From NCBI GenBank assembly GCA_002707365.1, contig PAMQ01000013.1, positions 7,157 to 71,156 of the forward strand: 64,000 bases of DNA, in the 5' to 3' direction. Positions 5,930 to 8,803 of the stretch are shown in pieces (within the stretch, counting starts at the first letter, position 1; every line of letters starts with the position of its first letter). The position numbers and the translations under genes were made by a program. The notes below the pieces were generated by a model, which was given only the letters and a program-made list of their open reading frames with translations, was not told the origin of the DNA and searched no databases. Source of the stretch: Trueperaceae bacterium (lineage in GTDB: Bacteria > Deinococcota > Deinococci > Deinococcales > Trueperaceae).

Positions 5930-6526
5930 TTATAGCGGACTCCTGTGGGTAATGGCTCTTCCAAGGGTAACTTCATCTGCGTATTCGAGGTCACCACCGA
6001 CCGGTAAGCCATAAGCTATTCGGGAGAGAGATACTCCTTTAGCTGAAAAGAGCTTTCCCAGGTACATTGCGGTTGCTTCCCCTTCCACTGTGGTTGAAGT
6101 GGCCAATATGACTTCGGAAACCTCGGTAAGCCGTTCGTCCAATTCTCGAATAGTTAGTTGATCCGGGCCTACACCATTCATGGGGCTTAAAGCACCATGG
6201 AGTACATGATATATCCCACTGTATTCTCCACTTCGTTCAATAGCTAGTAGGTCAGCAGGTTGTTCAACTACGCAAAGCGTCGCACGGTCACGACTTGGTT
6301 CATTGCAAACTGTGCAAATAGTTTCTTCGGTCGATTTGACATTGAAACAAGCAGGGCATTTGCTTAGGCCGGAGGCAGCGTCTTCAATGGATTGTGCTAA
6401 CCGCAAAACTTCTTCTTCTTCCTTGTTGAAAATATGGAAGGCCAGTCGTTGGGCGCTTTTTGGGCCTATACCTGGAAGGCGCCCCAGCTCTCTTATCAGG
6501 TTGAGTAAGGCAGGAGGATATTTCAT
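5930..6526 (-). CDS. recR: Recombination protein RecR
   Basis: RecR forms a DNA-clamping ring and works with RecO (and RecF) to load RecA. The 198-residue length is typical. It shows the helix-hairpin-helix LPGIGPKSAQRLAFH near the N-terminus, the C4 zinc motif CPAC...CTVC at about residues 58-75, and a Toprim domain (LCVVEQPADLLAIE) ending in the Walker-B-like region. It follows ybaB with a 12-base gap, giving the classic dnaX-ybaB-recR order. Downstream, 97 bases separate it from topA. Confidence 0.97.
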   Translation of the reverse strand: MKYPPALLNLIRELGRLPGIGPKSAQRLAFHIFNKEEEEVLRLAQSIEDAASGLSKCPACFNVKSTEETICTVCNEPSRDRATLCVVEQPADLLAIERSGEYSGIYHVLHGALSPMNGVGPDQLTIRELDERLTEVSEVILATSTTVEGEATAMYLGKLFSAKGVSLSRIAYGLPVGGDLEYADEVTLGRAITHRSPL

Positions 6527-6538
6527 TAAAGCAGCACT

Positions 6539-6850
6539 TTAAAAAAGGCCTGGCAGTCCACCTAGACCCCCCATAGCTGAGCCCATTTCTTGTTCTTGGA
6601 GCTCCTTAGACTTTCTTTGAGCATCACTTATGGCCGCTACTAACAAATCCTCAAGCAGTTCTAAATCATTGGTATCAACAGCACTAGGATCAATGTTTAT
6701 CCCGGTAATATTTCCGTCCCCTGTAGCCTTGACGATAACTAGTCCACCTCCCGAAGAGCCTTCAGTCGTAAGATTAGAAAGTCGCTTCTGTACTTCAGCT
6801 ACGCGTTCCTGTGCTTTCTGCGCTTCTTTCATAAGTTTTTGGATATTCAT
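6539..6850 (-). CDS. YbaB/EbfC family nucleoid-associated protein
   Basis: Small dimeric DNA-binding protein, 103 residues. It has the family's N-terminal MNIQKLMKEAQKAQERV amphipathic helix, a central G-rich beta region (GGGLVIVKATGDGNITGI), and a C-terminal glycine/methionine-rich tail (MGSAMGGLGGLPG). It lies between dnaX and recR, the conserved neighbourhood of this family in many bacteria. The usual role is to coat or bend DNA and affect local gene expression; a specific role here is not shown. The start ATG at 6850 gives the canonical N-terminus. Confidence 0.95.
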   Translation of the reverse strand: MNIQKLMKEAQKAQERVAEVQKRLSNLTTEGSSGGGLVIVKATGDGNITGINIDPSAVDTNDLELLEDLLVAAISDAQRKSKELQEQEMGSAMGGLGGLPGLF

Positions 6851-6941: not shown

Positions 6942-7349
6942 TTAATTAGAATTATCTAGATTCGTTGAGTGTTGAGCGGATTCGGGGTCTGATGTTTGTT
7001 TACCCGGTTTCAGCCCAAGAAATTTTCCAGGAAATATTGCCTGAAGATTTTTGACGTATTCCCGCAACCCTTCGGTTAGGGGTAGGCCTCTAGATTCGTC
7101 CAAAGGACCTTTTAGGCGGTGCGCGTTTAGGGGGGGCGATTCAGCGATTTCAGTATCTATAGAATCACGGGAATCTGTTTTGGGCAAGCTATCAAAATGA
7201 TTTTCTTGGAGAGTAGAGTCCTTAACATCGGAATCAGGACAGGCGTCTTCGGGTGCATTTACTAGGTCTACTTGCCTCGGGCTCGTAGATTGTGTCTTGC
7301 CACTTAGTAAAACGGGTGAAGTTTGAGCCCGGTTATTAGCCGGGCTCAA
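6942..7349 (-). CDS. dnaX: C-terminal extension of DnaX (tau tail) in the -1 frame
   Basis: A 135-codon open frame, low in aromatic residues and rich in Ser/Asp/Glu/Pro/Asn, that begins inside the last codons of the dnaX zero frame and lies in the -1 frame relative to it. Its only start codon near the 5' end is a TTG overlapping the dnaX stop (TTGA). That TTG has no Shine-Dalgarno and sits within a strong stem. An in-frame TGA lies only about 18 bases upstream of the slippery run, so the open -1 frame begins right at the shift site. The last third holds a conserved-looking helical piece (LREYVKNLQAIFPGKFLGL), which could be the tau C-terminus that contacts polymerase alpha. Read by frameshift it would extend DnaX to about 620 residues. 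A free-standing small protein is the alternative and seems less likely. Confidence 0.6.
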   Translation of the reverse strand: MSPANNRAQTSPVLLSGKTQSTSPRQVDLVNAPEDACPDSDVKDSTLQENHFDSLPKTDSRDSIDTEIAESPPLNAHRLKGPLDESRGLPLTEGLREYVKNLQAIFPGKFLGLKPGKQTSDPESAQHSTNLDNSN

Positions 7350-7358
7350 ACTTTTTTT
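7319..7358 (-). promoter_or_regulatory. Putative programmed -1 frameshift signal in dnaX
   Basis: On the minus strand the zero frame reads TTA AAA AAA GTT TGA. This contains the slippery heptamer A-AAA-AAA at 7358-7352, followed directly by a perfect 14-bp stem (arms 7340-7353 and 7319-7332) with a 7-base loop. Slippage by -1 continues into the 135-codon frame downstream. The arrangement resembles dnaX of E. coli (A-AAA-AAG plus stem) and the A-run of Thermus dnaX. There is no T-run after the stem in the sense direction, so it is not a sense terminator. The T7 lies on the plus-strand side, where no gene is transcribed. Confidence 0.7.
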
Positions 7359-8803
7359 AAGATCTTTTCAGGCCCTGAGAGAGTGATGGAATATTCAGGT
7401 CCTGCTACTGAATGCACGAGTTGTTCTAATTCCCCAACCCTCTCAGTTATCCGATCATAATGGAAACGATGAGTCTCGGAGTAAAAGAGGGTAATGTTTT
7501 TGCTGGTTACCTCCGCTTTGGCTGGAATTAAAAACGCTTTTAACTGGGCTGCTGCCTCACCCTTTACCTTTTCCCAAATCCTTGCGGGAGAATTCGTGTT
7601 TTCTGTTTGAGAAAGAGGAGGTATGGTCGGGACCGGACTATTGTTAGATAAAGCGTGGTGGACTTCAGCAGCTGGGTCCACTGACTCCGGTAGGTTACTC
7701 TCAGAGGAAGATACTTGGGATAGCCCAGTGGCGGAATCAGTTAAAGGTAGCGGAGTGTTGCCCGTTAAGGCGTTAGCTGCTTTTATGAGGGCAACTTCGC
7801 AGGAGTACATGTCTTCGCTCTGCGTAAAACGGTAGTCCTCGTCGTCTAAAGCGTGAAGTAATCGTAGAAGGTCGTTAGGTGGGGTCGATAAAGAAAAGCC
7901 TTTCTCTCCCCAAGCCGAGTGGATAGCTTCTCTAATTATCTTGCCTAGGTTATGGCAAATGGTACGGGGTGAGTAACCATCACGATAAAGAAGGTCGGCC
8001 GTGACCATGGCTTTTTTGAGGTCGCCGTTAGTTATGTGGCTAGCGAGAGTCTCTAATAAATCGCGAGGTGGTAGGCCAAGTGCTTGTTCGGCAACTTCAA
8101 TAGATATTTGTTTTCCCATCGCCAGCAACCGCTCTAACAAACTCTCAGCATCTCGCATAGCCCCATCGGCAGATCGGGATACGAGGTTAAGAGCCTGTTC
8201 CGAGGCTTGGATACCGGCCTCTGCGCAAAGACGGACAAGCTTAGACGTGATCTCAGGTTCGGACAACCGCCGAAAACGGAAATGTTGACAGCGGGAAACT
8301 ATGGTCGCTGGTAACTTCTCTGGCTCTGTTGTCGCGAGTATGAACATTAGTCCAGGAGGAGGTTCTTCTAAAGTCTTCAGGAGAGCATTAGCAGCGGCCT
8401 TGCTAAGCATATGGGCTTCATCTAAAATCCATACTCTCGTGTGACCTAAAAGGGGAGTGAGGCCAATTTTTTCACGCAAATCACGTACGTCTTCTACGGA
8501 GTTATTGCTAGCTGCATCAAGCTCAGTTACATCCGGGTGGTTACCTGACTGAACTGAGAGGCAGCCGTCGCAGGTTCCACAAGGACCCTTTGTTTTGATT
8601 GAAGTCCCACAATTTGCTGCCATTGCGAGTAGTCTAGCTGTGGTAGTTTTGCCGACACCTCGTGGTCCGGAGAAAAGATAAGCGTGGCCAAGTCGACCCT
8701 TTTCAGTTGCGGCAGCCAAAACATCCCTGACATGATCTTGGCCAATCAATTGATTAAAGTTGGCAGGTCTCGCGTGTTGGTAGATGGCTACCATTGAGGC
8801 CAT
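7346..8803 (-). CDS. dnaX: DNA polymerase III subunit gamma/tau (zero-frame product)
   Basis: AAA+ clamp-loader subunit that opens the sliding clamp for loading. Numbered from the ATG at 8803: Walker A GPRGVGKT at 46-53, zinc-module cysteines at about 65, 75, 78 and 81, Walker B WILDEAH at 125-131, and the SRC sensor at 170-172. Domain III follows, then a Ser/Pro/Thr-rich linker and a short final domain. The zero frame ends at 485 residues, right after the slippery site, and would be a gamma-like protein. The ATG at 8803 is preceded by GGTGG. A TTG at 8818 and an ATG at 8794 are alternatives. It is the first gene of the minus-strand run and is divergent from the patatin gene. Confidence 0.96.
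   Translation of the reverse strand: MASMVAIYQHARPANFNQLIGQDHVRDVLAAATEKGRLGHAYLFSGPRGVGKTTTARLLAMAANCGTSIKTKGPCGTCDGCLSVQSGNHPDVTELDAASNNSVEDVRDLREKIGLTPLLGHTRVWILDEAHMLSKAAANALLKTLEEPPPGLMFILATTEPEKLPATIVSRCQHFRFRRLSEPEITSKLVRLCAEAGIQASEQALNLVSRSADGAMRDAESLLERLLAMGKQISIEVAEQALGLPPRDLLETLASHITNGDLKKAMVTADLLYRDGYSPRTICHNLGKIIREAIHSAWGEKGFSLSTPPNDLLRLLHALDDEDYRFTQSEDMYSCEVALIKAANALTGNTPLPLTDSATGLSQVSSSESNLPESVDPAAEVHHALSNNSPVPTIPPLSQTENTNSPARIWEKVKGEAAAQLKAFLIPAKAEVTSKNITLFYSETHRFHYDRITERVGELEQLVHSVAGPEYSITLSGPEKILKKV

Follow-up and report, generated by a model that had tools for sequence, protein, structure and literature searches.

The dnaX gene in the window (the whole stretch of 64,000 nucleotides of a Trueperaceae bacterium contig that was analysed) raises the question whether a reading frame that stops directly behind a run of adenines, with a long open frame following in the -1 register, is a damaged gene or one from which two products are made. 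The zero frame lies on the minus strand (7346..8803) and, read from ATG 8803, encodes a gamma-like product of 485 aa; a start at TTG 8818 is also possible, which gives a reading of 490 aa. By its domains this protein is identified as DnaX, since Pfam finds the AAA+ clamp-loader domain (PF13177, 2.9e-45), the lid (PF22608) and DnaX_C (PF20964; 7364..7582, minus strand, E 1.1e-6, residues 413-485 of the 490-aa reading) all present. It is the one full-length dnaX copy in the genome. Downstream on the same strand lie a ybaB/ebfC-like gene (6539..6850) and a recR-like gene (5930..6526), named from their sequences and from dnaX-ybaB-recR being the usual gene order.

Direct reading bears out the preliminary description of the frames. 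Positions 7360-7346 of the minus strand read TTA AAA AAA GTT TGA, and the zero frame of dnaX terminates at this TGA (7346..7348), one codon past the slippery heptamer A_AAA_AAA (7352..7358, i.e. 7358-7352 in the direction of reading), which is followed by a G and has the X_XXY_YYZ form in zero-frame phase. From AGT 7352 (AGT TTG AGC ...) the -1 frame extends to TAA 6944-6942, an ORF (6942..7352, minus strand) of 136 codons, so that the joined product would count 484 + 136 = 620 aa. The last upstream stop of the -1 frame is the TGA at 7370-7368 (7368..7370, minus strand), which precedes the heptamer by ~9 nt and the stem discussed below by ~14 nt; a nearby upstream stop had been announced and does exist, but its distance from the stem is not the ~18 nt first given. 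Because the -1 frame is closed by this stop, the shift is confined to ~20 nt, a stretch in which the A7 is the sole slippery site.

On sequence grounds, the -1 tail can be identified as the C-terminus of DnaX/tau. Three relatives (L010, L013 and L029) carry this tail in the zero frame, fused to the rest of DnaX, and a profile of the relatives' -1 tails, from which the window was left out, matches zero-frame tails (L013 at ~1e-10, L010 at ~1e-7) as well as the tau tails of other families (L057 at 3.6e-4, L049 at 1e-3). Against the tail of the window the same profile gives a modest E of 0.005, in a search of about 5,400 ORFs of which the best unrelated one reaches 0.59. The alignment to tau tails that had been proposed as a check thus came out in favour of the tail, through this profile and the in-frame tails of the three relatives. 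The tails are low-complexity linkers that close with the motif LQxLFPGxV, in many cases together with ELPPDFW; the former is a C-terminal motif common to tau of the Thermaceae and other families. In the window the C-terminal tau motif region (EYVKNLQAIFPGK; 7035..7073, minus strand) is predicted by AlphaFold to form a helix (residues 94-106 of the tail, pLDDT about 80-86); apart from this helix the model of the tail shows no structure and is of low confidence, with a mean pLDDT of 61.5 for the tail. Pfam recognised no domain in the tail, and a PDB profile search with the tails returned nothing meaningful. It seems, then, to be a linker, probably disordered, plus a short C-terminal motif rather than a large tau domain, and it would presumably bind a replisome partner (e.g. 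the Pol III alpha subunit). The proposed division into a gamma-like and a tau-like product is supported by its conservation in the family, but has to be qualified in that the zero-frame product still contains DnaX_C (PF20964).

That conservation was assessed in 39 Trueperaceae genomes (17 genera, mostly metagenome assemblies), in 34 of which the site was readable. The inverted layout, i.e. a slippery run, one codon, a zero-frame stop (TGA, TAG or TAA) and a -1 frame open for 76-288 codons, is found in 31 of these 34, from 14 genera, and this recurrence far exceeds chance. One codon separates heptamer and stop in 30 of the 31 (two in L023), and L023 is also the single exception to the presence of an A_AAA_AAR or G_GGA_AAA heptamer (30/31). 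Short runs prevail, with A6 in 12 genomes, A7 in 17 (together 29/31) and an A9 in one (L005), while L036 (genome G004) has G_GGA_AAA, another canonical heptamer with only four As, and keeps both stop and hairpin. The lysine codons at the site are 47 AAA and 12 AAG; elsewhere in the same genes AAG is found 233 times versus AAA 112 times, and this bias towards AAA at the site counts in favour of the frameshift reading. Tau lies in the zero frame in the remaining 3/34 genomes, i.e. the three relatives with the fused tail.

The perfect 14-bp stem described behind the A7 is also present as stated (7353-7340 with 7332-7319), with a 7-nt loop (7333-7339), forming a putative frameshift-stimulating hairpin (7319..7353, minus strand) that can reach back into the slippery run. 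The 101 nt around the stem fold with z = -4.3 (0/200 shuffles fold as well). For the 45 nt that follow the A-site codon, z is -6.1 when compared with dinucleotide shuffles and -3.5 when the codons of the -1 frame are reshuffled synonymously, the latter being the proper control because the -1 frame is coding. Among the 31 genomes the hairpin of the window is one of those that exceed shuffled sequence most. Averaged over these genomes, the MFE of 36-nt windows reaches -20 kcal/mol exactly at the site versus about -7 to -11 around it, and the hairpin beats synonymous reshuffles at p<0.05 in 19/31 (Stouffer Z -11, a combined value that overstates independence since the genomes are related). The check in sister genomes that had been suggested for the A run and the stem therefore has a positive outcome, the layout being kept in 31/34 and the hairpin peak being common to the family. 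In the family, the stem begins ~6 nt after the A-site codon, a spacing that is kept among relatives and falls within the about 5-9 nt at which downstream RNA structure is expected for a -1 ribosomal frameshift signal. The stem pairs themselves differ between genomes (G-C, C-G, U-A, A-U), even within one genus (GGAGCG/CGCUCC in L024 vs GGGGC/GCCCC in L009), a covariation that is descriptive, as the pairs were taken from each sequence's own predicted fold. Upstream, anti-Shine-Dalgarno complementarity peaks across the family in 8-nt windows that start 14-16 nt before the heptamer (about 7-14 nt upstream), roughly where the stimulator of E. coli dnaX lies. This peak is strong family-wide but poor in the window, where a weak Shine-Dalgarno-like AGGG (7373..7376, minus strand) has an anti-SD energy of -3.1 kcal/mol versus a family mean of -5.8 at the peak.

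Following these results, it is likely (with a probability of roughly 0.85) that programmed -1 ribosomal frameshifting makes tau and standard reading makes gamma, the roles being reversed with respect to E. coli. Normally reading ribosomes would halt at the TGA one codon past A_AAA_AAA and release gamma (485 aa), whereas some ribosomes, held back by the hairpin, would move back by one base at the pair of lysine codons and translate 136 further codons, yielding tau (620 aa) with LQxLFPGxV at its C-terminus. The short runs, the swapped heptamer, the hairpin at fixed spacing and the Shine-Dalgarno-like peak together argue for such ribosomal frameshifting. That the shift takes place on the ribosome and not on RNA polymerase is inferred from sequence, and so are the existence of both products and any ratio between them. 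The preliminary reading, in which the unshifted product is gamma-like and the shifted one tau-like, with a stem as stimulator, is in line with the conserved heptamer, stop, hairpin and Shine-Dalgarno-like peak. One possible complication concerns the tRNA pool: a second tRNA-Lys has been suggested to disfavour ribosomal slippage at AAG (Atkins et al. 2016, PMC5009743). The window genome has tRNA-Lys with both UUU and CUU anticodons, but both codons of its heptamer are AAA, so this would be no issue for its AAA-AAA; it is one for some A6G relatives that likewise carry both tRNA-Lys(UUU) and tRNA-Lys(CUU).

The reading of the locus that would do away with any recoding, namely an error of sequencing or assembly (or a pseudogene) in a gene that is truly single-frame, draws on the A7 homopolymer being a typical place for indels and on the genus of the window being known from one genome. 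However, across 14 genera the frame breaks at the identical codon in each of 31 separate assemblies, among which are single-contig genomes, and the flanking nucleotides differ between them; this refutes an indel here (the outcome for which relatives had been proposed as a test) and makes an error hardly credible. A hairpin of this strength could also be read as an intrinsic transcription terminator, the more so as a T run follows the stem on the plus strand (window 7319-7358) and the stem is unusually strong. Yet no plus-strand gene ends at the hairpin, the coding strand lacks a U run after the stem, a terminator scan lists none at the stem, and in the relatives the stem stays ~6 nt from the slippery site with conserved coding sequence running through it, so that a terminator in place of a frameshift stimulator can practically be dismissed. 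Somewhat less far-fetched, but still very improbable, is termination followed by reinitiation, by which the tail would be a separate small protein starting at TTG 7349. This TTG overlaps the TGA in the window, and a TTG or GTG is found there in 9/31 genomes; in 17/31, however, the -1 frame lacks any ATG, GTG or TTG over its first 30 codons, the tail is fused to DnaX in three relatives, and reinitiation would leave the conserved slippery heptamer without a reason.

The remaining alternative is transcriptional slippage as in Thermus, where RNA polymerase would insert one extra A into some of the transcripts, whose ordinary translation would then give tau, one inserted A restoring the frame of the tail just as well. 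It is the explanation to which most inverted dnaX genes were assigned by Antonov et al. (2013, PMC3711429), and it gains from the other families of the class, of which 20 of about 70 genomes were examined: the eighteen dnaX genes sampled there for site signals have A8-A10, no hairpin peak comparable to that of the Trueperaceae and no Shine-Dalgarno-like peak at that place. These same long-run families speak against slippage in the Trueperaceae, though, because a conserved hairpin at fixed spacing and a Shine-Dalgarno-like peak are unnecessary for it and are absent precisely where the runs are long. Moreover, the runs are mostly just A6-A7, and together with G_GGA_AAA in genome G004 (four As) these argue for slippage of the ribosome instead. 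For the family as a whole, transcriptional slippage is therefore considered unlikely. The closest relative of the window (L005, genome G029) does combine A9 with a hairpin of little strength (z +0.9), and its branch may therefore rely on slippage by RNA polymerase.

The frameshifting proposed here for the Trueperaceae resembles that of E. coli dnaX (RF00382) in its A_AAA_AAG-type heptamer in lysine codons, the hairpin ~6 nt downstream, the two products and, at the family level, the upstream Shine-Dalgarno-like element. Unlike in E. coli, the zero frame and not the -1 frame carries the stop, shifting yields the long product (136 open codons) and not gamma, and the window has A_AAA_AAA as its heptamer. 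An Rfam scan of the site gave nothing in the window; RF00382 appeared in L028 only, at the exact site but sub-threshold (22.4 bits, cut-off 35). With dnaX of Thermus thermophilus, from the same class, it shares an A run late in the gene and a related C-terminal tau motif; unlike it, Thermus has A9, tau in the zero frame and no conserved hairpin at the site, with slippage leading to gamma. An A9-like run with zero-frame tau is lacking in the window and 30 relatives; the sampled sister families for the most part show it.

An order of frames in which tau depends on recoding is supported for the window, but it is less unusual than the preliminary description had it, since there is precedent. Antonov et al. 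(2013, PMC3711429) reported 17 dnaX genes from 12 genera in which tau requires recoding, 12 of the genes having poly-A (A10 in nine), for which slippage was proposed. These two-ORF genes (e.g. in Chlorobi) likewise have a zero-frame stop after an A run and tau in the -1 frame, but mostly with A10, whereas here A6-A7 comes with a conserved hairpin and a Shine-Dalgarno-like element within one family. According to Atkins et al. (2016, PMC5009743), there seem to be few bacteria in which ribosomal frameshifting has its products reversed, Chlorobium phaeobacteroides being named; its dnaX (A7, with possible ribosomal stimulators) is the nearest inverted case. A literature search found no inverted dnaX in Truepera; the main text of Antonov et al. 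(2013) is without Truepera, and its supplement may list one. As reversed dnaX has been described earlier and a Truepera report was not found, it is the family-wide variant that is counted as new, i.e., as far as searches show, a family-wide inverted dnaX that bears ribosomal signals, together with what looks like a switch away from transcriptional slippage at the base of the family.

In the DnaX tree the family forms one clade (100/99), over the main branches of which the inverted state is scattered, and the inverted dnaX is therefore most simply ancestral in the Trueperaceae, with three losses by fusion. The sampled sister-family genes mostly have tau in the zero frame, in a Thermus-like manner. 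It is rather probable that at the base of the Trueperaceae RNA-polymerase slippage (A8-A10, zero-frame tau) gave way to ribosomal -1 frameshifting with the products flipped, after which all tau would have been frameshift-dependent in almost the whole family, but for the three later fusion losses. The class would thereby offer a clade-wide natural experiment on the evolution of recoding, with polymerase slippage in the sister families, apparent ribosomal frameshifting here and the products swapped, and with three lineages that separately returned to one frame. If tau is made by shifting only, the proportion of tau to gamma in the replisome would follow directly from how efficiently ribosomes shift. 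On the practical side, gene finders will truncate DnaX at the zero-frame stop in Trueperaceae genomes of the inverted type.

The three single-frame genes differ from each other. L010 (from the AT-rich genome G002) has kept an A9, and its tau is encoded in the zero frame, so that a Thermus-like layout lies nested in the frameshifting clade; in L013 the A run is absent. In L029 (genome G007) the run is broken (CCT AAG AAA AGC); it is a close relative of L028 and L032, which keep the frameshift, and its single frame is likely a recent reversion. Outside the family, L047 (A10), L048 (A9) and L050 (A9) stop in the zero frame directly behind the run and carry the tau tail in the other frame, with no hairpin, which fits a slippage-type inverted dnaX beside relatives with zero-frame tau. 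The window genome itself (L002), a small assembly of 2.08 Mb, sits within the family on a long branch of the DnaX tree (0.73 changes per column).
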